Assembly: GCF_004765815.2 (NCBI RefSeq)
Contig: NZ_SBIS02000011.1
Coordinates: 62,001-126,000 of the forward strand
DNA length: 64,000 bases
Reading direction: 5' to 3'
Origin: Halorussus salinus
Lineage (GTDB): Archaea > Halobacteriota > Halobacteria > Halobacteriales > Haladaptataceae
The notes under the pieces are model-generated. The model searched no databases, was not told the DNA's origin, and saw only the letters and a program-made list of their open reading frames with translations. Both the position numbers and the translations under genes were made by a program. This document shows positions 19,302 through 31,297 of this stretch, one piece after another (within the stretch, counting starts at the first letter, position 1; each line of letters begins with the position of its first letter).

Positions 19302-19462
19302 GGCCAGCGAGGAGCGGTCCGCGTCCCGCGAGAGGGAGGCAGTCGTGGCGAGCGTCGCGCCCGACGAGCGTCGTTTTCTGCGGAGAAGAGTAGTAGGACG
19401 AGTCGTTCAGGCGTGGGACTATTGAGTCCGCGGTGTGTATCGGGGACAAGAGATTCCCAACC

Positions 19463-22400
19463 ATGAGCGGCCACAGCGAACAGTCGGCGGAGGGCGGCGG
19501 GAAGTCGCCGGGTCCCGACTTCGGCGACGACTTCTTCGAGCGGATGGTGGAGTCGGCCAGCGACGCCGTGGTCACGGCCGCCGCGGACGGGACGCTCGTC
19601 TACGCGAACCCGGCGGTCGAGGACCTACTGGGCTACGAACCCGCCGAGGTCCGCGGCAAGCGGTTCCCCGAGTTCGTCCCCGAACGGCTCCGGGACAGGT
19701 ACGACGGCTGGTTCGACCGCTACACCGACGGCGACGGCGGGACGCCGCTCGACGACGAGAGCTACGAGGTGACGTGGGTGGCCGCCGACGGCGAGGAGGT
19801 CCGCCTCTCGGTCTCGGGATTCGCCCACGAGAGCGACGGCGAGCAGTGGTTCACCGGCTTTCTCCGGGAGGCCGACGACGAAGAGGCGTCGGCCGAGCGC
19901 CTCCGCGAGGAGGAGGCGCTCATCGAGGAGATATTCGAGACGAGTCCGGTAGCGTTCGCGGTGCGGGACGAGAACGGCGACCTCCTGCGGGCGAACGAGC
20001 GGGCCGCCGAACTGGTCGGGGTCGGGTTCGACGAGCTTCCGGCCGACGCCGACGGCGAGCAGGCGTGGGACATCTACGACGCGGACGGCGAACCGCTGGC
20101 CGACAGCGAGTACCCCGTCAACCGAGTTTTGGAGACCGGCGAACCGGTCTACAACGAGGAGGTCGTCGTGGAGCAACCGAGCGGGCGGCGCGTCCACCTC
20201 TCGGTCAGCGCGGCCCCGGTCCGAGAGGGCGACGAGGTTCGGCGGGTCGTCAGCGCGGCCGAGGACGTGACCGAACTTAAGGAGACGCAGTTCGAACTCG
20301 AACGCCGCCGAGACGAGTTAGAGACCGAACTCTCCGAGGTGTTCAGCCGAATCGCGGACGCCTTCTTCGCGCTGGACGACGATTGGAACTTCACCTACGT
20401 CAACGACGAGGCCGAGAACTTGCTGGACCAGTCGGAAGAAGAACTCGTCGGCGAGAACGTCTGGGAGATGTTCTCCGAGGCAGTCGGCACGACGTTCCAA
20501 CACGAGTACGAGCGAGCGATGGAGACCCAAGAACCCACCTCGTTCGTGGAGTACTACCCGCCGCTGGCGGCGTGGTTCGAGGTGCAGGCCTACCCCTCCG
20601 AGACCGGTCTCTCGGTGTACTTTCAGGACGTGAGCGAGCGCGTCGAGCGCGAGGGCGAGTTGCAGAACCGAGTCAAGCAACAGCGCGCGGTCGCGGAGTT
20701 CTCCCAGTCCGCGCTCGAAGACCGGTCGCTCGACAGCCTGTTCGACGAGGCGGTCGAAGTCGTCGCCGAGACGCTCGACCACGACTACTGCAAGGTGTTG
20801 GAGTTGGACGCCGACGCCGACGAACTGTTGCTCCGGAGCGGTGTCGGCTGGCGCGAGGGCATCGTCGGCGAGGCGACGGTCGCCAACGACCGCGGCTCGC
20901 AGGCGGGCTACACCCTCGTCTCCGAGGAGCCCGTGGTCGTGACGGACCTCGAAACCGAACCCCGGTTCTCGGGTCCCGACCTGTTGACCGCCCACGGCGT
21001 GAAAAGCGGCATCAGCACCATCATCGGGTCGGCCGACGAGCCGTGGGGAATCTTGGGGACTCACCACGCCGAGACGCGCGAGTACGCCGACCACGACGTG
21101 CAGTTCGTCCAGTCCATCGCCCACATCCTGACGACCGCCATCCAGCGCCGCGAGCGCGAGCGACGGCTCGAACGCTACGAGACCATCGTGGAGACGGTCG
21201 AAGACGGCGTGTACGCGCTGGACGCCGACGAGCGATTCGTCATGGTCAACGACGCGTTCTGCGAGATGACGGGCTACGACCGCGAGGAACTGCTCGGCGA
21301 ACCCGCCTCGGTCGTCCACAGCGAGGCCGTCAGCGAGCAGGCCGCCGAGATGAGCGAGGCGGTCACCGACGAACTCGGGAGCGTGATGCTCGAACTCGAA
21401 CTCCGGACGAAGGACGGCGACGCCGTGCCGGTCGAGGCGCGGTTCGGACCGTACCGCGACGACGCGGGCGCGTTCGCCCGGACCGGCGTCGTCCGGGACA
21501 TCACCGAGCGCAAGGAGCGCGAGCGCGAACTTCGCAACCGCGTCAGCCAGCAACAGGCCCTCTCGGAGTTCTCCCGGCACGCGCTCGAAGACCGACCGCT
21601 GGACGACCTGATGGACGAGGCGACCGAACTCGTCGCCGAGACGCTCGACCACGAGTTCGGCAAGGTGTTGCAACTCCGGCCCGAGGAGGACGACCTGCTC
21701 CTCCGGGCGGGGTACAACTGGGACGAGGAGACCGTCGGGTCGGCGACGGTCGGCACCGAACGCGACTCGCAGGCGGGCTACACGCTCCTGTCGAGAGAGC
21801 CGGTCGTGGTCGAGGACTTCCCGAACGAGGACCGCTTCTCGTATCCCGACCTCAAAGCCGCGAAGGGCATGATAAGCGGCGTCAGCACCATCGTCGGGTC
21901 GCCGGACGAGCCGTGGGGCATCCTCGAAACTCACACGACCGAGCGCCGGGAGTACGCCGACTACGAGGTCCAGTTCCTCCAGTCCATCGCCCACATCCTC
22001 TCGACGGCGATTCGCCGCCGGGAACGCGAACAGCAACTCGAACGCTACGAGACTATCATCGAGACCGTCGAGGACGGCATCTACATCGTCGGACCCGACG
22101 GGACGTTCTCGCTGGTGAACTCGTCGTTCGCCGAGTTGGTGGGCTACGACCGCGACGAACTCGTCGGCACGTCGCCCGCGCGACTCTACGACGACGAGAC
22201 CGCGGCGACGGTGAGCAACCTCCAAGGGGAGATACGCGACGGCGAGCGCACCTCCGCGACTCTCGAACACGACCTCCGAACGAAGGACGACGCAACCGTC
22301 CCGGCCGAGACCACATTCACCCTCCGACCGACCGGGGCGGGCCACGAGCGCGTGGGCGTGACCCGCGACATCACCGAGCGCAAGCGATTCGAGCAGACCC

Positions 22401-23527
22401 TGACCGCGCTCCACGAGTCGAGTCGGGAACTCCTCCAACTGGAGACCGCCGACGCGGTGGCCGAATCGGTCCTCCGGACGACGACCGACGTGTTGGGGAT
22501 TCGGGGCGCGGGAATCTACCTCTACGACGGCGAGGCCGACGAACTCGCCCCGGTAGCGGTCTCGGAGTACGTCGTGGACCTCCTCGGCGAGTTGCCGACG
22601 TTCGAGGAGGGCGACGAGGCGCTGACGTGGCGGGCGTTCGCCGACGGCGAGACCATCGCGTTCGAGGACGTGTCCGAGACCCACCTGACCTACCGGGACG
22701 ACACGCCGTTGCAGAGCGGCCTCTGGATTCCGCTCGGCGACCACGGGGTCCTCGCGGTGGTGTCGTCGGAGCGCGACGCGTTCGACGCCGACGACCGGAC
22801 GCTCGCGGACCTGCTGGCGGCGACCGCGGAGGCCGCGCTCGACCGGGTGGAGCGCGAGCGCGAGCGCCGCCAGCACGAGCAGGAACTGGAGGTCCAGAAC
22901 GAGCGGTTGGACGCGTTCGCCAGCATGCTGGCTCACGAACTCCGCAACCCGCTCGAAATCGCGCAAATATACCTCGACATGGGCGTCGAGTCGGCGGTCG
23001 GCGACGGCGACGACGCCGATTCGTTCCGGGAGGTCGAGCGCGCCCTCGACCGCATCGAGGAGATGATAGACACCCTGCTGGTCGTGACTCGGCGGGGCGG
23101 AGCGGTCGAGACGACCGAGGCACTGGACCTCGGCGAGGTGGCCCGCGAGTGGTGGAACGAGTTGGACCCCGACGGCACGCTCGCCGTCGAGACCGACCGG
23201 GAAATCGTCGCCGACTCGTCGCGGCTCCGCCAACTGTTAGAGAACCTGTATCGCAACGCCGAGGAACACGCCGGGCCGGACGCGACGGTCCGGGTCGGCG
23301 ACCTGCCGGGCGGGTTCTACGTCGAGGACGACGGGCCGGGCATCCCCGCGGACGAACGGCGCGAGGTGTTCGACCCCGGCTACTCGACCAGCAACGTCGG
23401 CATCGGCTTCGGTCTCGCGGTGGTCGAGCAGTTGGTCGAGGCCCACGGCTGGGACTGCGAAATCACCGAGAGCGCGTCGGGCGGCGCGCGCTTCGAGTTC
23501 ACGAACGTCGAGACGCCTGCGGAGTAG
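19463..23527 (+). CDS. multi-PAS/GAF sensor histidine kinase
   Basis: A 1354-residue soluble kinase with no membrane segment. Domains in order, approximate residues: PAS (25-135), PAS (155-270), PAS (285-390), GAF (400-560), PAS (570-685), GAF (690-850), PAS (860-970), GAF (975-1130), HisKA with the phosphorylated His near 1158 in MLAHELRNPLEIAQ, and HATPase with N box NLYRNAEEHAG, G1 box VEDDGPGIP and G2 box GIGFGLAVV. The second GAF-PAS pair is a near copy of the first. No response regulator is adjacent. I start at ATG 19463 rather than the GTG ten codons upstream because MSGHSEQSAEGG is a normal haloarchaeal opening. Signal unknown. Confidence 0.92.
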   Translation: MSGHSEQSAEGGGKSPGPDFGDDFFERMVESASDAVVTAAADGTLVYANPAVEDLLGYEPAEVRGKRFPEFVPERLRDRYDGWFDRYTDGDGGTPLDDESYEVTWVAADGEEVRLSVSGFAHESDGEQWFTGFLREADDEEASAERLREEEALIEEIFETSPVAFAVRDENGDLLRANERAAELVGVGFDELPADADGEQAWDIYDADGEPLADSEYPVNRVLETGEPVYNEEVVVEQPSGRRVHLSVSAAPVREGDEVRRVVSAAEDVTELKETQFELERRRDELETELSEVFSRIADAFFALDDDWNFTYVNDEAENLLDQSEEELVGENVWEMFSEAVGTTFQHEYERAMETQEPTSFVEYYPPLAAWFEVQAYPSETGLSVYFQDVSERVEREGELQNRVKQQRAVAEFSQSALEDRSLDSLFDEAVEVVAETLDHDYCKVLELDADADELLLRSGVGWREGIVGEATVANDRGSQAGYTLVSEEPVVVTDLETEPRFSGPDLLTAHGVKSGISTIIGSADEPWGILGTHHAETREYADHDVQFVQSIAHILTTAIQRRERERRLERYETIVETVEDGVYALDADERFVMVNDAFCEMTGYDREELLGEPASVVHSEAVSEQAAEMSEAVTDELGSVMLELELRTKDGDAVPVEARFGPYRDDAGAFARTGVVRDITERKERERELRNRVSQQQALSEFSRHALEDRPLDDLMDEATELVAETLDHEFGKVLQLRPEEDDLLLRAGYNWDEETVGSATVGTERDSQAGYTLLSREPVVVEDFPNEDRFSYPDLKAAKGMISGVSTIVGSPDEPWGILETHTTERREYADYEVQFLQSIAHILSTAIRRREREQQLERYETIIETVEDGIYIVGPDGTFSLVNSSFAELVGYDRDELVGTSPARLYDDETAATVSNLQGEIRDGERTSATLEHDLRTKDDATVPAETTFTLRPTGAGHERVGVTRDITERKRFEQTLTALHESSRELLQLETADAVAESVLRTTTDVLGIRGAGIYLYDGEADELAPVAVSEYVVDLLGELPTFEEGDEALTWRAFADGETIAFEDVSETHLTYRDDTPLQSGLWIPLGDHGVLAVVSSERDAFDADDRTLADLLAATAEAALDRVERERERRQHEQELEVQNERLDAFASMLAHELRNPLEIAQIYLDMGVESAVGDGDDADSFREVERALDRIEEMIDTLLVVTRRGGAVETTEALDLGEVAREWWNELDPDGTLAVETDREIVADSSRLRQLLENLYRNAEEHAGPDATVRVGDLPGGFYVEDDGPGIPADERREVFDPGYSTSNVGIGFGLAVVEQLVEAHGWDCEITESASGGARFEFTNVETPAE

Positions 23528-23605: not shown

Positions 23606-26314
23606 TTACGTTCGTCCGCCGTCCGACCCGCGAGACTGCCCGCCGAGCGACCGCGAGGAGTTCGCCACGACGACCAGACTGCTGGTGCCCATCGCCAGCG
23701 CGGCGAACAGCGGGTTCAGCAGACCAGCGAGCGCGAGCGGGACCGCCACGGCGTTGTAGAGGAACGCCCACCCGAGGTTGTGGCGAATCCGGCGGTTGGT
23801 CCCGCGGGCCACGTCGAACGCCGCGACCACGGCGTCGAGGCCGCCCTCCACGATGACGGCGTCGGCGGCGTCGCCCGCGAGGTCGGTCCCGCTCCCGAGC
23901 GCCACGCCGATGTCGGCGGTCGCCAACGCGGGCGCGTCGTTGCTCCCGTCGCCGACCATCGCCACGGTGCCCCGCGATTCGAGTCGTTCGACGGTCTCGG
24001 CCTTCGCCTCGGGCGGCACTCCGGCGAACACCTCCGAGACGTTCGGGTCCGCGCGGAACCGCGCGGCCGCCCGCTCGTCGTCGCCCGTCAGGACGACGAC
24101 TTCCCGACCGTCAGCGAGGTCGGCCACCGAGTCGCGCCACCCCTCTCGGGGACTATCGCCGACGACCACAACGCCACGCGCTCGGCCCGCCCACCCGACC
24201 GCGACGGGGACGTGACCCTCGGCGCGAGCCGCGGCGGCGGCCTCGCGGAGCGAGTCGGCGACCGCGAATCCGCGCGAGTCGAGCATGTCGGGGTGGCCGA
24301 CCGCAATTTCGTCGCCGCCGAGTTCGCCGGTCTCGGATTCGCCGGTTTCGACCTCGCCGGTCACTCCTCGGTCGTGGGTCTCGACGTTTCGGGCGTCGAG
24401 TAGGGTCGCAGTGCGGTCTGCGGTCGCGGTGCTGTCGGCGGTTGCGGTCTCACTGATGTCGGCATCAGCGGCGGTCGCTGTCGTCGCGGTCGCAGTGCGG
24501 TCTGCGGTCGTTGTCGCTGTTGCGGCGCGGTCTGCGGTCTCCTCGGAGTCGGCTTCAGGAGCGGTCGCAGTGGCGGTGCTGTCGGCGGTCACAGGTCCGG
24601 TTCCGGATTCCGAGCCAGCATCGACCGCCGTGTCAGAACCGCCAGCCGCCACGATGGCCTCCGCGATGGGGTGGGCCGAGTAGCGTTCGAGCGCCGCGGC
24701 GCGGGCGACGACCTCCTCGGACGCCACTTCCGACTCGCGGGAATCGTCCACCACCACGTCCTGCACCGCCATTCGCCCGTCGGTCAGCGTCCCGGTCTTG
24801 TCGAGGAGAACCACGTCGGCCTCGGACGCGGACTCGAACACGGCGTCGGAGGCGACGACGACGCCGCGGTCGGCCGCCTCGCGAATGCCCGAGGCCACGG
24901 CCAGCGGGGTCGCCAGCCCGAGCGCGCAGGGACACGAGACGATGAGGACCGTCAGGCCCGCCAGCAGCGCGTCGGCGACCGGCGCGCCAGTCACGAGTCG
25001 CCAACCGGTCGCTACCGCGGCGAGGAGAAGCACCGTCGGCACGAACAGCGTCGCCAGCTTGTCGGCGAGTCGCTGGACGCCCGACCGGGAACTCTGAATC
25101 TCCCAGAGCAGGTCCACGAGCCTGTCGAGGGTACTCTCGGCCTCGTCGCCGACTTCGACCACGAGCGGGTCGTCGGTGACGACGGTGCCCCCGAGAACCG
25201 AATCGCCGGGCCTGCGGGTCTCGGGCAACGACTCGCCGGTCACGAGCGACTCGTCCACCGCGGCGGTGCCCTCCGCGACTTCGCCGTCCACGGGCACGCG
25301 CTCGCCCGGCCGGACGAGGAGACGGTCGCCCGGCGCGAGGTCGGCGACCGGGACCGATTCGTGGCTTCCGTCCGCCGTGACGCGGGTAGCCTCTGAGACT
25401 CTGGCGCTGGTCAGTTCCGAGAGGCCGCTGGCGGCTCTCCGCTTGATGCGCTCCTCGTAGTAGTTGCCCAGCGTCACGACCAGCACGATGGCGACGGTCA
25501 CGTCGAAGTAGACGTGCGTTCGGCCGACCAGCACCGCGACGCTGCTGTAGGCGTAGGAACTCAGCGCCGCGAGCGAGACCAGCAGGTCCATGTTGGGCTG
25601 TCCGGCCCGCAAGCTGACCACCGCGCCGCGCAGGATGGGGTAGCCCGTGTAGAACAGCACGAGCGAGGACATCAGCCAGACGTTGCCGAACAGGTAGAGG
25701 CCCGCGTAGTCGCCGAGGTCCACGAGGGGGTCGAAACCGAGGTAAGTGGGATAGAGGAACAAGACGTACCACAGCATCACCATCATGCCGAAGACGCCGC
25801 CGCCGAGCAGGAACCGGACGATTTGGGTGTCGGCCCGGTCGTCGGCGGCGGTTCCGCCCTCGGGGTCGCCGACCGCGTAGCCGTACCGGTCGAGTGTGCG
25901 CCCGAGCGCGTCGAGGTCGGTCTCCTCGTCGTGAGCGACCCGGAGCATGTCGGTGGCGTAGCTCGCGTCGGCGGCGTGGACGCCCTCGGCGTCGGCGGCG
26001 GCCGACTCGATGAACGTCTCGCAGGTCGCGCAGTGCATCCCCTCGACGCCGAGGTACGTGTGGTCGGCGTCGTCGGGCGCGTCTTCGACCCCGCCGCCAC
26101 CGCGCTCGTCGCGGACCACCTCGGCGTCGGCCGACTCCACTTCCTCGACGGTCCGCGCGATTTCGAGACACCCCCGACAGCAGTACGCGCCGGGGACCTC
26201 CTCGGCGGACTCCAGCACGTCGTCGGTTATCGGCGCGTCGCCGGTCGGCAGTCCACAGAGGGTACACTCGTCGGGGGCGTCTTCGGGGTAACTCTCCGCG
26301 TGTTTCTCACTCAT
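23606..26314 (-). CDS. copper-type P1B ATPase (CopA/CcoI-like)
   Basis: A 902-residue heavy-metal ATPase. In order: an N-terminal Cys-rich domain (CTLCGLPTGDAP ... YCCRGCLE) of the CcoI/FixI type; an HMA domain with GMHCATCETF near residue 93; eight membrane segments with the ion motif SCPCALGLATP; the phosphorylated Asp in DKTGTLTDG near 507; the HP motif in SAHPIAEAIV; and GDGSNDAPALA. The N-domain after the HP motif is swollen by a Thr/Ala-rich insertion, about residues 568-638. It is followed in genome order by a TauE-type gene and the oxidase operon, so copper delivery to the oxidase is likelier than plain copper detoxification. Confidence 0.92.
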   Translation of the reverse strand: MSEKHAESYPEDAPDECTLCGLPTGDAPITDDVLESAEEVPGAYCCRGCLEIARTVEEVESADAEVVRDERGGGGVEDAPDDADHTYLGVEGMHCATCETFIESAAADAEGVHAADASYATDMLRVAHDEETDLDALGRTLDRYGYAVGDPEGGTAADDRADTQIVRFLLGGGVFGMMVMLWYVLFLYPTYLGFDPLVDLGDYAGLYLFGNVWLMSSLVLFYTGYPILRGAVVSLRAGQPNMDLLVSLAALSSYAYSSVAVLVGRTHVYFDVTVAIVLVVTLGNYYEERIKRRAASGLSELTSARVSEATRVTADGSHESVPVADLAPGDRLLVRPGERVPVDGEVAEGTAAVDESLVTGESLPETRRPGDSVLGGTVVTDDPLVVEVGDEAESTLDRLVDLLWEIQSSRSGVQRLADKLATLFVPTVLLLAAVATGWRLVTGAPVADALLAGLTVLIVSCPCALGLATPLAVASGIREAADRGVVVASDAVFESASEADVVLLDKTGTLTDGRMAVQDVVVDDSRESEVASEEVVARAAALERYSAHPIAEAIVAAGGSDTAVDAGSESGTGPVTADSTATATAPEADSEETADRAATATTTADRTATATTATAADADISETATADSTATADRTATLLDARNVETHDRGVTGEVETGESETGELGGDEIAVGHPDMLDSRGFAVADSLREAAAAARAEGHVPVAVGWAGRARGVVVVGDSPREGWRDSVADLADGREVVVLTGDDERAAARFRADPNVSEVFAGVPPEAKAETVERLESRGTVAMVGDGSNDAPALATADIGVALGSGTDLAGDAADAVIVEGGLDAVVAAFDVARGTNRRIRHNLGWAFLYNAVAVPLALAGLLNPLFAALAMGTSSLVVVANSSRSLGGQSRGSDGGRT
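24398..24612 (+). repeat. repeat-like Thr/Ala-coding insertion inside the copper ATPase
   Basis: Plus-strand units such as GCAGTGCGGTCTGCGGTCGC and GTCTCCTCGGAGTCGGCTTC resemble those of intergenic copies C and E. Read on the coding strand they give a run of Thr/Ala/Asp residues in the nucleotide-binding domain. The frame is intact on both sides. Confidence 0.5.
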
Positions 26315-26318
26315 GCGT

Positions 26319-27206
26319 TTATCCCAACGGTTGGTACTCCGGTGCCGGGAGCGGGAGCATCACGCGGGGCGCGTCGATGCCGAGCAGCGCGAGTCCGTGC
26401 GCGACCATCAGATACCCCAGCACGACGAACGCGACGCCCAACACCTGATGGACTCGCTTGCTCGCCGACAGCGACCCGAAGACGGTGCCGTACACCAACA
26501 GCGTCGGGAACGTGCCGAGACCGACGAGCGCCAGCAGGAACGCCCCGCGAACCGGGTCGCCGAGCGCGAAGGCGTAGACGTACGCCGGGTACGTGATGGG
26601 ACACGGGAGGAGGGCGTGAACCACGCCGAGTCCCGCGATGCGGGCGTCGCCGACGAAGGCGTCCACCCGGCGGGTCAACGCCGCGCTCACCCGGCCGAAC
26701 AGGTCGTCGAACGGTCCGAGCGAGGGGTGGGCGGCCGACCCGCCGACGTAGCTGACTCCGGTCACGCCGATGAACGCTCCCGCGAGCAACGCGGTCGTCG
26801 CCTGCACGCCGGTCCCGGCCGCTAGCACCTGTTCCATCGCGCCGACCGTGACCGCACCGACGAAGCCGAGCAACGCCCCGACGGCGGCGTAGCCCGCCGT
26901 CCGCCCGAGGTTGAACAGGACGTGCTGGCGGACCTGCCGGAGCGTGAGGTCGTTCGACTCACCGGCGGCCTCCTCCTGCGCTCGGAGTCGGTCGGCGTAG
27001 ACGCTCACCAGCGGACCGCACATCCCGAGACAGTGGGCACCCCCGAGGAGGCCGACCACGAGGAACACCGCGGCGTCCACGTTCCCGGTCGGGAGCGGGC
27101 CGCCGTGACCGTGGAGCGGGAGCGGCGCGGCGTGGGCGAGTGACGACGCCAGCGCGCGGTAATCGAGCGACGAGGCCAGCGCGCCGTGGCCGAGGAGCGC
27201 GAGCAT
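26319..27206 (-). CDS. TauE/SafE-type (DsbD_2) six-helix membrane protein, CcoH/UreH-like
   Basis: A 295-residue membrane protein with about six segments. The key motif FLVVGLLGGAHCLGMCGPLV near residue 55 is the paired-Cys first helix of the DsbD_2/TauE-SafE group found beside CcoI copper ATPases in cytochrome oxidase clusters. An additional His-rich N-terminus (LPLHGHGGPLP) may bind metal. Its stop is four bases before the ATPase start, so the two are co-transcribed. Role by context: copper or thiol handling for oxidase maturation. Sulfite export is unlikely despite the family name. Confidence 0.8.
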   Translation of the reverse strand: MLALLGHGALASSLDYRALASSLAHAAPLPLHGHGGPLPTGNVDAAVFLVVGLLGGAHCLGMCGPLVSVYADRLRAQEEAAGESNDLTLRQVRQHVLFNLGRTAGYAAVGALLGFVGAVTVGAMEQVLAAGTGVQATTALLAGAFIGVTGVSYVGGSAAHPSLGPFDDLFGRVSAALTRRVDAFVGDARIAGLGVVHALLPCPITYPAYVYAFALGDPVRGAFLLALVGLGTFPTLLVYGTVFGSLSASKRVHQVLGVAFVVLGYLMVAHGLALLGIDAPRVMLPLPAPEYQPLG

Positions 27207-27211
27207 GGGAC

Positions 27212-27481
27212 TCAGACCGTCGAGTCACTGGCTTCGACAGTCTCGTCGGTCGCGTCGCCGTGGTCGTCGTGACCGTGCCCGCCCTCGGTCGGCGAGGTGA
27301 GGAGGTAGAGGCTCCCGGTGATGAGGGCGACGTTGACGACGGCGACGACTGCCAGCATACTCCGGCCGAGCGCGAAGAGGACCACCGGAGCGAGCGCCAG
27401 TAGCGCGACGACACTTAAACTCCGAGGCGAACGGTTAGCCACTATCCTTTTAATACCAGACTGTCCCTGTGACTGCTCCAT
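27212..27481 (-). CDS. small two-segment membrane protein with His-rich tail
   Basis: An 89-residue protein with two membrane segments (SLSVVALLALAPVVLFALG and MLAVVAVVNVALITGSLYLL) and an acidic His-rich C-terminus (GGHGHDDHGD) that could bind copper. It heads the minus-strand copper operon and is divergent from the oxidase operon. I start at ATG 27481; the frame stays open further upstream but the extra sequence is not protein-like. I do not recognise the family. Confidence 0.7.
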   Translation of the reverse strand: MEQSQGQSGIKRIVANRSPRSLSVVALLALAPVVLFALGRSMLAVVAVVNVALITGSLYLLTSPTEGGHGHDDHGDATDETVEASDSTV

Positions 27482-27550
27482 ACGAACCGATAGTAACGGT
27501 AGTACCAATCCGATTTCGCCCGTTTTCAGGGTCTGGGAATCGGATGTCCG

Positions 27551-27560
27551 CATTAAATAT
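27551..27560 (+). promoter_or_regulatory. TATA box of the terminal oxidase operon
   Basis: CATTAAATAT, centred about 26 bases before the ATG at 27582. The core is nearly symmetrical and could also serve the divergent copper operon, with a leader of about 45 bases on that side. Confidence 0.5.
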
Positions 27561-27581
27561 TCCCTGTTCGTACCCTCGTTT

Positions 27582-27815
27582 ATGTCGATGGAACCGAAGA
27601 CGGAGAGTACGGTCCGCGAGGACGTTCCCGAACGTCCCCGCGGGTACGTGGTCGGCTCCGCGCCCGACAGCATCGAGCGCGAAATCGGCCACGACGAGTT
27701 CGACCCCGTGGGAACGCTGGTCCTGATACTGGGCTACTTCGCCATCTTGGTCGTCATGTGGGTGTTCATGTACTTCGTGGAGTTCCTCGGTCGGGGACTG
27801 ACGGTGGTCGGATAG
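27582..27815 (+). CDS. small single-span subunit at the head of the ba3 oxidase operon
   Basis: A 77-residue protein: a hydrophilic acidic N-terminus (to about residue 45) and one membrane helix (GTLVLILGYFAILVVMWVFM). In the Natronomonas ba3 oxidase cluster a gene of this kind (cbaD) precedes the subunit II gene. The assignment is by position and topology, not by a diagnostic motif. Subunit II starts 13 bases after its stop. Confidence 0.75.
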   Translation: MSMEPKTESTVREDVPERPRGYVVGSAPDSIEREIGHDEFDPVGTLVLILGYFAILVVMWVFMYFVEFLGRGLTVVG

Positions 27816-27828
27816 GAGGTGATTCAGG

Positions 27829-28341
27829 ATGGAGATACACGCATACGAGAAGTTCTGGCTCGCGGCGGCGCTCCTGCTCATCGTCGGCTTCATCGCGACC
27901 GTCTCCTACGGCGCAGTCGGGGCTGGCGTCGAGATGATAGCCGACGACGGCGGGACCGTGGACCCCCAAGCACTCGACGAGCATCCGAAGTTTAGCGACC
28001 CCGGCGTCTACGAGTCCGGCCCGAACGAGTACGACGTGTACGTCGTCGCCCAGCAGTTCGCGTTCCGACCGGGCACCGCCGAACCGATTCGGGTGCCCGC
28101 CGACAGCACCGTGACGTTCCACGTGACCTCCGCCGACGTGATTCACGGCTTCGAGGTCGTGGGCACCAACGGCAACACGATGGCCATCCCCGGACAGGTC
28201 GCGACGTTCACGGTCGAAGTCGGCGGCCCGAAGGAGTACGGCCTGCTCTGCAACGAGTACTGCGGGTCGGCCCACCACGCGATGGAGGGGAGCATGGAAG
28301 TCGTCCCGAAAGACGAGTTCAACGCGACGGGAGGTGCCTGA
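27829..28341 (+). CDS. coxB: cytochrome c oxidase subunit II, ba3 type
   Basis: A 170-residue subunit with one N-terminal membrane helix (FWLAAALLLIVGFIATVSYG) and an extracellular cupredoxin domain holding the CuA centre. The ligands are visible: the first His in DVIHGFEVVG and the loop CNEYCGSAHHAMEGSM (C-x3-C-x3-H-x2-M). Length and single helix fit ba3-type (B family) oxidases rather than the larger A-family subunit II. It accepts electrons from a halocyanin or cytochrome and passes them to subunit I. Overlaps or abuts the subunit I start. Confidence 0.93.
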   Translation: MEIHAYEKFWLAAALLLIVGFIATVSYGAVGAGVEMIADDGGTVDPQALDEHPKFSDPGVYESGPNEYDVYVVAQQFAFRPGTAEPIRVPADSTVTFHVTSADVIHGFEVVGTNGNTMAIPGQVATFTVEVGGPKEYGLLCNEYCGSAHHAMEGSMEVVPKDEFNATGGA

Positions 28342-28342
28342 G

Positions 28343-30070
28343 ATGGCGACGTTCGTAGACCGCTATCCGGAGGAGGCGTCGGTCGTCAAGGCGACGCTCG
28401 TCGTCTCGTTCCTCTCGCTCGGTATCGGGGCGCTGTTCGGGCTGGTGCAGGCGCTCCACCGGACGGGCTACTTGCGCTTCCTCGACTCGGTGGACTACTA
28501 CACCATCCTGACGGGCCACGGGGTACTCCTCGCGCTGGTGTTCACCATCTTCTTCCTGATGGGACTGTTCACGTGGGCGGTCGTCCAGAGTCTGGAACGC
28601 CCGCTTCCGGACATCAGACTGTCGTGGGCGTGGGTCGGCCTCACGACGACCGGCGCGACGTTCGCGGCGGTCGCCATCCTCGCGGGCCTGATTCCGAGCA
28701 TCGACATGAGCGCGGACGTGCTGTACACCTTCTACGCGCCGCTGATGGCTCACCCGCTGTTCTACGTCGGGCTGGCGATGTTCATCGTCGGGACGTGGCT
28801 GGCGGGGGCCGACTGGTTCCTCGCGTACCGCGAGTGGCGCGCCGAGAACCCCGACGAGCGCATCCCGCTCCAGACGTTCATGGTGCTGACGACGATGCTG
28901 ATGTGGTATCTGGCCACGCTCGGCGTCGCCGTCTCGACGGTGTTCTTCCTCATCCCGTGGTCGTTCGGCTGGGTCGAGACCGTCAATCCGCTGCTCACGC
29001 GGACGCTGTTCTGGTTCTTCGGCCACCCCGTCGTGTACTTCTGGCTGATGCCAGCCTACCTGATGTGGTACACCGTTCTGCCGAAGCTGGCGGGCGGACG
29101 GCTGTTCAGCGACCCCCTCGCGCGGGTCGTGTTCGTGCTGTTCCTCCTGCTCTCGACCCCGGTCGGCATCCACCACCAGTATCTCGACCCCGGCATCGCG
29201 GAGGGCTTCAAGTTCATCGCGATGACCAACACGATGTTCCTCCTGTTGCCGAGTCTGCTGACCGCGTTCACCGTGGTCGCCAGCATGGAACACGGCGCGC
29301 GACAGCGCGGCGGCGAGGGCTACGTGAGTTGGCTCGGGTCGCTCCCGTGGCGCGACCCCGCGTTCACCGGGATGGCGCTGGCGGGCGTGATGTTCGCGGC
29401 TGGCGGCTTCTCGGGCATGATAAACGCCGGGATGAACATCAACTACCTCATCCACAACACGCTGTGGGTGCCGGGGCACTTCCACCTGACCGTCGGCACC
29501 GCGGTCGCGCTGACGATGATGGCCGGGTCCTACTGGCTCGTCCCGCAACTGACCGGTAAGCGCCTGTACAGCCGCCCCATCGGCCTGCTACAGGTCGTCG
29601 TGTGGTTCGTCGGGATGGTGCTGATGTCGAACGCGATGCACCGCGGCGGTCTCGCCGGAATCCCGCGCCGGACCGCCGAACCCCAGTACCAGAACTTCGA
29701 CTTCTCGATGGCGCTCGGGACCGTCGGCGAGATTCGCGCCGGAATCGCCATCGGCGGGACGCTGCTGTTCGTCTCGGTCGTGCTGTTCCTCGTCAACATC
29801 CTGCTGTCGGCGTTCGAGGAGCCAATCGAGAACCCGGTGGACGACAGCCTGCCCGAACCGCTCTCGGGCGCGAGCGGGAGTCCGGTCGTCCTCGACAACC
29901 TCCGGCTCTGGACCGCCATCGCGGTCGTGCTGGTGATTCTGGCCTACACGCTCCCGCTGGCTGGCATCGTCGGCGACGCCGGGCTGTTGGGCGACGTGCC
30001 GGGCGTCCCGGTCTGGGTGTCCGCGAACGCCGAGGCCACGCTCGACCTGCTAACGGAGGTGATAGCATGA
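28343..30070 (+). CDS. coxA: cytochrome c oxidase subunit I, ba3 type
   Basis: The 575-residue catalytic core with about 13 membrane helices. Ligand motifs in order: LTGHGVLLALVF (low-spin haem His), WFFGHPVVYFWLMPAYLMWY (CuB His with the cross-linked Tyr), GIHHQYLDPG (two CuB His) and LWVPGHFHLTVG (haem His pair). HPVVYF and the absence of the D-channel Asn/Asp pattern fit the B family. It reduces O2 to water and pumps protons. I start at ATG 28343, one base after the subunit II stop; a GTG three codons earlier is in frame. Confidence 0.95.
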   Translation: MATFVDRYPEEASVVKATLVVSFLSLGIGALFGLVQALHRTGYLRFLDSVDYYTILTGHGVLLALVFTIFFLMGLFTWAVVQSLERPLPDIRLSWAWVGLTTTGATFAAVAILAGLIPSIDMSADVLYTFYAPLMAHPLFYVGLAMFIVGTWLAGADWFLAYREWRAENPDERIPLQTFMVLTTMLMWYLATLGVAVSTVFFLIPWSFGWVETVNPLLTRTLFWFFGHPVVYFWLMPAYLMWYTVLPKLAGGRLFSDPLARVVFVLFLLLSTPVGIHHQYLDPGIAEGFKFIAMTNTMFLLLPSLLTAFTVVASMEHGARQRGGEGYVSWLGSLPWRDPAFTGMALAGVMFAAGGFSGMINAGMNINYLIHNTLWVPGHFHLTVGTAVALTMMAGSYWLVPQLTGKRLYSRPIGLLQVVVWFVGMVLMSNAMHRGGLAGIPRRTAEPQYQNFDFSMALGTVGEIRAGIAIGGTLLFVSVVLFLVNILLSAFEEPIENPVDDSLPEPLSGASGSPVVLDNLRLWTAIAVVLVILAYTLPLAGIVGDAGLLGDVPGVPVWVSANAEATLDLLTEVIA

Positions 30071-30264
30071 AGATGTCCCGCGCGGGTCTCCTCGTGGCAG
30101 TCGCGTTCGGCATCCCGGTCGCCATCGAACTCCGAGTGCTGTTCAGCTTCTTCGGGGTCGAACTCCCGCTAGTGTCGGTGGTCGTGTTCGAGGCGCTGTT
30201 CTTGCTCCTCGTCGCGGTCCTCTACAGCCTCAACGCGGAACCGAAATCGGCGAGCAAGCACTGA
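30067..30264 (+). CDS. small two-helix protein of the oxidase operon
   Basis: A 65-residue protein with two hydrophobic stretches (GLLVAVAFGIPVAIELRVLF and LPLVSVVVFEALFLLLVAVL) and a short Lys-rich tail. ATGA overlap with the subunit I stop shows tight coupling. Similar small genes (cbaC or cbaE) follow subunit I in other haloarchaeal ba3 clusters; which one this is cannot be told by eye. Confidence 0.75.
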   Translation: MKMSRAGLLVAVAFGIPVAIELRVLFSFFGVELPLVSVVVFEALFLLLVAVLYSLNAEPKSASKH

Positions 30265-30269
30265 GCGAC

Positions 30270-30959
30270 ATGACGACCGACGCCTCCTCGAACGCCGACG
30301 CCGATTCGTCGGTTCCGGAGTCGGGTCGGTCGCTCGGCCGCCCGGCGCGGGCCGCCCGGACGTTCGTCGCGCTGACGGTCGCGGAGGCGGTGGTCGTCCT
30401 CGCGTATCTGGCGCTCGCCGGGACCGAGGTGGTCTCGCTCCGGTACCTCGCCTACCCCTTCGTCTGGATAAACGCGGCGCTCCTCGCGGTCGCGTACGCG
30501 CCGATTCCGCGACCGACCGACCGATGGCAGGTCGGCGCGACCGCGGTCGGCGTCGGTTACTTCGGGGCGCTCTGCGTCGCGGGCGGTCTCGCGTCGCTGG
30601 GCGACGGCTCGGGAGTCGGGACACTGACGGTCGCCGCAGCCGCGCCCGGCTGGGGACCGCTGGTCGTCGTCTCGGGTGGCGCACTCCACCTCACGCTCGT
30701 CCCGTTCAAACTGGTCGGCTACGCCGGGCTGGCGACGCTCGCGTCCGCCGCGGTCGCCCGTGCGAGTCGCGGCCTGTTAGGCGGTGCGCTCGGTCTCGTG
30801 ACCTGCGTCAGTTGCACCGGGTCGGTGCTGGGCACACTGCTGGCTGGCGTCGGCGGCTCGTCGGTCGCCGTCTCGGCGGTGCTGGCTCGGTCCTACGACC
30901 TCTCGACCGCGGTGTTCCTGCTCGCAATCGGCGGGCTGTGGGTCGGCCTACAGCGGTGA
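30270..30959 (+). CDS. multi-span membrane protein at the end of the oxidase operon
   Basis: A 229-residue protein with six or so membrane helices. The distinctive motif is GLVTCVSCTGSVLGTLLAGV, a CxxC placed inside a membrane helix near the C-terminus. It starts five bases after the previous stop, so it is part of the oxidase operon. The family is a haloarchaeal hypothetical; a role in copper or haem insertion is suggested by the CxxC and the company it keeps, not shown. Confidence 0.8.
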   Translation: MTTDASSNADADSSVPESGRSLGRPARAARTFVALTVAEAVVVLAYLALAGTEVVSLRYLAYPFVWINAALLAVAYAPIPRPTDRWQVGATAVGVGYFGALCVAGGLASLGDGSGVGTLTVAAAAPGWGPLVVVSGGALHLTLVPFKLVGYAGLATLASAAVARASRGLLGGALGLVTCVSCTGSVLGTLLAGVGGSSVAVSAVLARSYDLSTAVFLLAIGGLWVGLQR

Positions 30960-31045: not shown

Positions 31046-31297
31046 TCAGGCGCTTCCGCGACGCCGACGCCGCTCGTGGCGGTCAGTAGTGTTGTTGAGC
31101 CACGCGGTCAGCACCGCCGCGAACACCACTAGCGAAACACCCGACAGCACCGCAACTGCGAGGTCGGCGGAGATAGCGACGTTCGCGGGTGCGAGCAGGG
31201 CGTACCCCGCGACGGCGGTCAGGACGACGCCGAGGAGAACGAACAGTCCGATTGCCACGCGTAACACGTCGAACCGCTGGGTCGGTTGGGTGGTCAT
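31046..31297 (-). CDS. small two-helix membrane protein
   Basis: An 83-residue hypothetical with two membrane segments (VAIGLFVLLGVVLTAVAGYA and ISADLAVAVLSGVSLVVFAA) and an Arg-rich C-terminus (RHERRRRRG). It converges with the oxidase operon. No family recognised. 31298-31487, after it, contains nothing I can support. Confidence 0.6.
   Translation of the reverse strand: MTTQPTQRFDVLRVAIGLFVLLGVVLTAVAGYALLAPANVAISADLAVAVLSGVSLVVFAAVLTAWLNNTTDRHERRRRRGSA

Follow-up and report, generated by a model that had tools for sequence, protein, structure and literature searches.

The genome of Halorussus salinus (assembly GCF_004765815.2, contig NZ_SBIS02000011.1) contains a gene cluster for a ba3-type heme-copper oxidase that stands back to back with a set of putative copper-handling genes, and it is this cluster that is described here. 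It lies at 23606-30959 of the window, by which we mean the whole stretch of 64,000 nucleotides that was analysed. A first-pass annotation had predicted eight genes in two divergent operons at this place; a coordinate check confirmed all eight in position and strand, their spacing fits two divergent operons, and the Pfam matches agree, so that the proposed layout is borne out. In the list below, lengths are in amino acids (aa) or base pairs (bp), HMM stands for hidden Markov model and protein names are predictions.

23606..26314, minus strand: CcoI/CopA2-like Cu(I) P1B ATPase, 902 aa, by Pfam/NCBIfam; N-terminal CxLC..CCRGC plus HMA domain, membrane CPC
26319..27206, minus strand: DsbD_2 (PF13386) membrane protein, 295 aa, Pfam E 1.4e-40; named 'sulfite exporter TauE/SafE' in RefSeq
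27212..27481, minus strand: CbaE-family two-helix protein, 89 aa, the 'His-rich' protein, by HMM A4 and locus position
27482..27581, no strand: divergent intergenic region, 100 bp between the two starts, by coordinates; promoters expected
27582..27815, plus strand: CbaD / subunit IIa, one helix, 77 aa, FDPVGT...W motif, by motif and position
27829..28341, plus strand: CbaB, CuA subunit II, 170 aa, CxxxCxxxHxxM, by Pfam COX2 and the CuA motif at residue 141
28343..30070, plus strand: CbaA, ba3 oxidase subunit I, by Pfam COX1; ATG 28343, alternative GTG 28334
30067..30264, plus strand: CbaC, two helices, 65 aa, by its slot and an HMM match to a RefSeq 'CbaC protein'
30270..30959, plus strand: DUF7546 (PF24412) six-helix membrane protein, 229 aa, Pfam E 2e-52; CVSC (C179, C182) in predicted helix 5

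Both operons are tightly packed, with intergenic gaps of +13, about 0, -4 and +5 bp in order along the plus strand and of +5 and +4 bp on the minus strand. The start of the one-helix protein has been corrected to ATG 27582, which gives 77 aa, and for subunit I the likely start is ATG 28343, behind a GGAGGTG stretch, rather than GTG 28334. A Pfam scan of the window proteins recognised E1-E2 ATPase, Hydrolase and HMA in the ATPase, COX2 (E 4.4e-8) in subunit II and COX1 (E 6.9e-88) in subunit I, and found no Pfam family above cut-off in the proteins of 89, 77 and 65 residues.

Conservation was counted at two levels. By genome, 146 were searched, with a ba3 COX1 at E <= 1e-60 in 67 and the other 79 without. 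By locus, the sample is 74 loci with a ba3 COX1, that is the window and 73 of 76 other COX1 matches (those at G040:C145 and G043:C124 were left out, and likewise that in G108, L151), and it is at these ba3 loci that the pairing of ATPase and oxidase was counted. This is a genuine cluster that haloarchaea conserve, in an arrangement far beyond chance: around the ba3 COX1 gene CbaD and the CuA subunit II adjoin in 74 of 74 loci, CbaE is near in 70, the ATPase adjoins in 64 and the DsbD_2 gene stands beside the oxidase in 47, which upholds the neighbourhood conservation expected of the locus.

The oxidase is assigned to the B-type (ba3) heme-copper oxidases because the best matches of subunit I in a PDB search are the Thermus ba3 chains (E about 1e-122), and the plus strand is recognised as the known cba operon; the CuA motif CxxxCxxxHxxM is intact in subunit II, at residue 141. 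Parts of PMC3128077 describe the helix upstream of B-type subunit II as subunit IIa, marked by P-x(1-3)-G[T/A] and a Trp and annotated cbaD in Natronomonas and Haloferax, and a portion of PMC8305020 lists cbaD and cbaA of Haloferax volcanii. As this motif with its Trp is found in all 74 loci, the one-helix protein is identified as CbaD (subunit IIa), and the 65-residue protein as CbaC, for it has the same slot as the RefSeq 'CbaC protein' of Natrinema zhouii, which the HMM matches at E 7e-17. The CbaC HMM had earlier drifted onto overlapping wrong-frame open reading frames (ORFs); the Natrinema match and the position agree nonetheless, and CbaC behind COX1, which was scored by position, is seen as a CbaC-like ORF in most of the loci listed. 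The description of three unnamed small partners is therefore not borne out, since they correspond to subunit IIa (CbaD), to CbaC and, judged by its place in the locus, to CbaE. CbaD shares with subunit IIa of the B-type oxidases of Thermus and Aquifex its single helix, its place upstream of the CuA gene and the P-x(1-3)-G[T/A] plus Trp motif; in contrast to the bacterial protein the haloarchaeal CbaD is longer, and in some relatives it is fused to halocyanin, as already reported. Such CbaD sequences, within an ORF of at least about 400 aa, occur at L090, L092, L094, L096-L098, L107, L108, L111, L114 and L115; relatives of this large-ORF kind are annotated 'halocyanin domain-containing' and correspond to the known halocyanin-CbaD fusion. 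Seven COX1-family genes of the Halorussus salinus genome are over the Pfam cut-off and one further match is weak, so terminal oxidases are highly redundant in this genome.

On the minus strand, the ATPase carries the membrane CPC, the HMA motif and an extra N-terminal CxxC...C(C)xxC, as do all 64 of the 64 ba3-linked ATPases, and C45, C46, C49, C95 and C98 are invariant in 25 aligned N-termini. Two N-terminal metal sites are typical of CcoI in the part of PMC8475189 that deals with them, and a membrane CPC together with two such sites, the mark of CcoI/FixI (CopA2), was thus found 64 times out of 64. PF12156, the metal-binding domain of cation-transport ATPases, matches 23 of the 25 members at E <= 0.1, the best at 1.2e-4. 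We take this domain to be a marker of CcoI/FixI, and a weak criterion. With CcoI/FixI (CopA2) of the bacterial cbb3 clusters the window protein shares the CPC, the HMA domain, the extra N-terminal Cys site and a gene beside the oxidase; it differs in being attached to an archaeal B-type ba3 rather than a C-type cbb3 oxidase, and the likeness is one of motifs and not of a tree, which is why it is described as CcoI-like and not called CcoI. The window ATPase also has an Ala/Thr/Asp-rich low-complexity stretch of ~80 residues with ADRTATAT-like words in its catalytic part (24395-24634, residues about 561-640), and the ATPases of many relatives are shorter.

The DsbD_2 protein scores 139.8 bits against a Pfam cut-off of 24.9 and can be placed in that family, which is present in 66 of the 67 ba3 genomes and in 18 of the 79 others. 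Its HCxxMC and PCP motifs are conserved, as is H95; among the 47 proteins encoded beside the oxidase H58, C59, M62 and C63 are kept in 46, and H197 and C202 in 44. SCO, too, is commoner with ba3 (61/67 genomes against 31/79), and at one relative (L085, G018:C1:235394-235789) the ba3 locus has an SCO gene between those for DsbD_2 and CbaE, which supports a copper role of the minus-strand operon. Cox11/CtaG is the usual CuB metallochaperone; Cox11 was not found in the Halorussus salinus genome, and among 14 control genomes it was found only in Caulobacter. The proposal that a cbb3-style copper delivery, with a CcoI-like ATPase and a DsbD_2 protein, is here attached to a ba3 oxidase is supported, and the arrangement is conserved over many haloarchaea. 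The literature searched yielded no paper that pairs CcoI with TauE, or the sulfite exporter TauE with cbb3 and copper. According to part of PMC12617631 the CcoI-type pump of Caulobacter serves the cbb3 but not the aa3 oxidase, and a CcoI-like pump serving ba3 would for that reason be a variation on known CcoI-type pumps and not a new kind.

The 89-residue protein follows the oxidase closely. Its profile, A4, built from 22 rows, finds a match in 67 of the 146 genomes, namely 66 of the 67 with ba3 and one of the 79 without (Fisher p 1.5e-39, a statistic that ignores shared ancestry), so that the expected co-conservation with the ba3 genes is clear. The sole ba3 genome without an A4 match is G120, where an earlier HMM did find a copy, and the one match outside ba3 genomes (G053, E 1.4e-4, inside a 555-aa frame) was counted and is probably chance. 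No Pfam family matches more than one of the 22 members. The gene lies on the opposite strand just upstream of COX1 in 63 loci; at four second-copy loci (L083, L086, L099 and L109) the gene comes after COX1 and shares its strand, and at these no CcoI-like ATPase was found within 9 kb.

As for its name, a 'monocistronic cbaE' has been described beside the cba locus (PMC3403918), and cbaDBAC with cbaE in Natronomonas pharaonis and Natrialba magadii has the same order as the window, a divergent cbaE and then cbaD, cbaB, cbaA and cbaC. In the RefSeq record of Natrialba magadii pNMAG01 we find a 65-aa gene behind COX1, COX1 itself (located by tblastn and absent from the PLSDB table), CuA, a 75-aa gene and a divergent 74-aa gene, NMAG_RS18120; the Natrialba genes match the HMMs of the window families, and NMAG_RS18120 matches that of the 89-residue family at 6.6e-31. 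From gene order, gene count and this match we infer that the 89-residue protein is CbaE. On pNMAG01 an ATPase follows the cbaE-like gene and no DsbD_2 gene is listed; compared with Natrialba, the window adds DUF7546 behind cbaC and the DsbD_2 gene in the copper operon.

CbaE had been put forward as a His-rich copper-assembly factor, and this part of the proposal finds no support, as the tail is not conserved and CbaE tracks the oxidase and not the ATPase. Over the last 28 residues of the 72 best members no His is found in 22, one in 22, two in 12, three in 13 and four in 3. The His tail as the functional heart of the family was accordingly rejected, and it appears to be an optional lineage trait. 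CbaE is most likely an obligate small two-helix partner, either a subunit or a stabiliser of assembly, which fits better than a copper chelator because at the four second-copy loci it accompanies the oxidase where no CcoI-like ATPase is near.

The last gene of the plus strand encodes a member of DUF7546 (178.4 bits against a Pfam cut-off of 27), a family for which the literature searched held no study. It occurs in 107 of the 146 genomes and is present in Haloferax volcanii, and its relation to ba3 at the genome level is negative, with 40 of the 67 ba3 genomes against 67 of the 79 others, so the idea that DUF7546 is specific to ba3 was rejected. A CtaA-CtaB fusion directly precedes it in all 30 of the best-scoring loci, and CtaAB or an oxidase gene is nearby in 33 of 40 further places picked for diversity. 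In a separate scan with organism names all 36 of 36 DUF7546 loci stand beside CtaAB or oxidase genes, a scan that used peptide patterns including the CxxC stretch and therefore says nothing on CxxC conservation. Besides the copy in the window, Halorussus salinus has one next to CtaAB and CoxB. In a chromosomal cluster (L039, 7009-15253) coxB is divergent from a ctaA-ctaB fusion and DUF7546, and 3.4 kb on come an ABC ATPase and an ABC-2 permease; this ABC pair follows in most loci of the CtaAB type and may be part of oxidase biogenesis.

Within the 74 ba3 loci, where a clean HMM was used, as for the CxxC count, DUF7546 is found in 18; in 12 of these it follows CbaC, and in the other 6 it lies on the copper side, past the ATPase. 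A tree of 88 rows, from which the duplicate L030 (the same gene as L039) was omitted, places the 12 members behind CbaC in one group (support 93/92). The six copper-side members and that of L151, which lies downstream of an ATPase on the oxidase strand, group weakly (83/25), and the join of the two ba3-linked groups is also weak (48/85). All 89 of the 89 rows that the HMM retrieved contain the CxxC, and the columns invariant over 27 diverse rows are P63, W66, Y97, G127, P130, C179 and C182. AlphaFold2, run on 37 sequences, predicts six helices, the third and fourth joined by a beta loop (mean pLDDT, the predicted local confidence, 81; pTM, the predicted fold score, 0.74), the model being less sure around the CxxC (pLDDT about 56-60). 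The beta loop with its PGWGP probably faces outside, since Lys and Arg are lacking in loop 105-144, and an outward loop suggests that the CxxC of helix 5 would lie inside the membrane, nearer the cytoplasm. We regard DUF7546 as a putative general biogenesis protein of haloarchaeal heme-copper oxidases, of which a ba3-linked branch has its place in this operon. The 229-residue protein thus stands as a fair candidate for an assembly factor, in view of its oxidase and heme A neighbours, and falls as a factor tied to ba3.

Taken together, the locus is probably a haloarchaeal cba (ba3) oxidase with a divergent, dedicated copper supply, in which CbaE is a partner of the oxidase and DUF7546 a general biogenesis protein. 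Gene content, conservation, co-occurrence, motifs and a predicted fold are the observations from which this is argued; for the direction of transport, every transfer step and all protein contacts we propose the following. Like CcoI, the ATPase would pump Cu(I) out through the membrane, and the DsbD_2 protein, through its HCxxMC, His and PCP, would pass on or reduce copper, or else reduce the thiols of its acceptors. Copper would then reach CuA, with an SCO encoded elsewhere, and CuB. CbaD and CbaC would be small subunits of the oxidase and CbaE a subunit or a stabiliser during assembly, whilst DUF7546 would handle Cu(I) or thiols through its membrane CxxC.

Several observations weigh against this reading. 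The ATPase is missing beside the oxidase in 10 of the 74 loci and the DsbD_2 gene in 27, though the latter is usually elsewhere in the genome, and PF12156 scores 14.9 bits in the N-terminus of the window ATPase, below its cut-off of 27. The name CbaE is based on gene order and not on a labelled sequence. Of the 67 ba3 genomes 27 lack DUF7546, so ba3 assembly can do without it in those lineages, and 7 of the 40 diverse loci have no oxidase or CtaAB gene nearby (two, L148 and L150, show a weak ATPase match alone, and in five nothing was recognised). Against PDB its model gave no Foldseek match at E <= 0.001 and no convincing relative; the best VIA-align result was Z 3.7, for tied rhodopsins with a root mean square deviation of 6.5 and 4.7 over 128 and 126 residues.

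It has to be asked whether DUF7546 acts on heme, passing it, as a partner of the CtaA-CtaB heme A/O synthase, to subunit I of several oxidases. This is possible though on balance unlikely: DUF7546 stands immediately behind the CtaA-CtaB fusion in the 30 loci of highest score and in most of those with organism names, often with the ABC-2 exporter pair next, but ba3-linked members lie beyond the copper ATPase in six loci and the invariant residues (P, W, Y, G, P, C and C) offer no heme ligand such as His. CtaA, present in 141 of the 146 genomes, exceeds the 107 with DUF7546, and for the same reason could not separate the carriers of the latter. DUF7546 most likely handles Cu(I) or thiols via its predicted intramembrane CxxC, a role favoured because the Cys pair is invariant, no His is, and the ba3-linked members occur also in the copper operon. 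A bolder version, to which we give little credence, makes DUF7546 the haloarchaeal replacement for Cox11/CtaG, carrying Cu(I) on the CxxC to CuB of several oxidases, with one branch specialised for ba3; it may act alike, being a membrane protein that has two paired Cys and is linked to oxidase genes, yet it has six helices and belongs to another Pfam family.

Quite improbable, by comparison, is that the minus-strand operon is an ordinary CopA-type copper detoxification system which lies beside the oxidase by chance. The ATPase is indeed also over the generic copper-ATPase models TIGR01511 and TIGR01525, and its solved relatives are CopA-type exporters; however, the pairing with ba3 recurs across the loci, DsbD_2 strongly co-occurs with ba3, and the CcoI-like N-terminal Cys site of every ba3-linked ATPase is lacking in one of two paralogs of the same genome, the CopA-like C5, which has two HMA domains. 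Least probable of all is that CbaE and DUF7546 each serve specifically to insert copper into ba3, the His tail holding copper and DUF7546 inserting it, for whilst CbaE is within the copper operon in most loci and DUF7546, with its invariant CxxC, is present in some ba3 loci, the tail is not conserved, four loci have CbaE behind COX1 and no ATPase close by, and DUF7546 is missing from many ba3 genomes and present in most of those without ba3. With the dedicated copper supply as the preferred reading, the locus yields a list for testing: a CcoI-like pump on ba3, a DsbD_2 protein with soft-metal ligands, CbaE and DUF7546.

Two further genes flank the cluster. A 1364-aa PAS/GAF histidine kinase (19433-23527, plus strand), which could be a redox or oxygen sensor, is convergent with the ATPase gene and ends 78 bp from the end of the latter. 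Behind DUF7546, on the other strand, is an 83-aa protein with two hydrophobic stretches (31046-31297, minus strand) that has no Pfam or NCBIfam match above cut-off. Finally, on plasmids of Natrinema and Halobaculum, TusA, DsrE-like or DUF1641 genes, whose usual link is to sulfur handling, are found beside ba3 loci (L198, 3722-5740; L199, 1-810).

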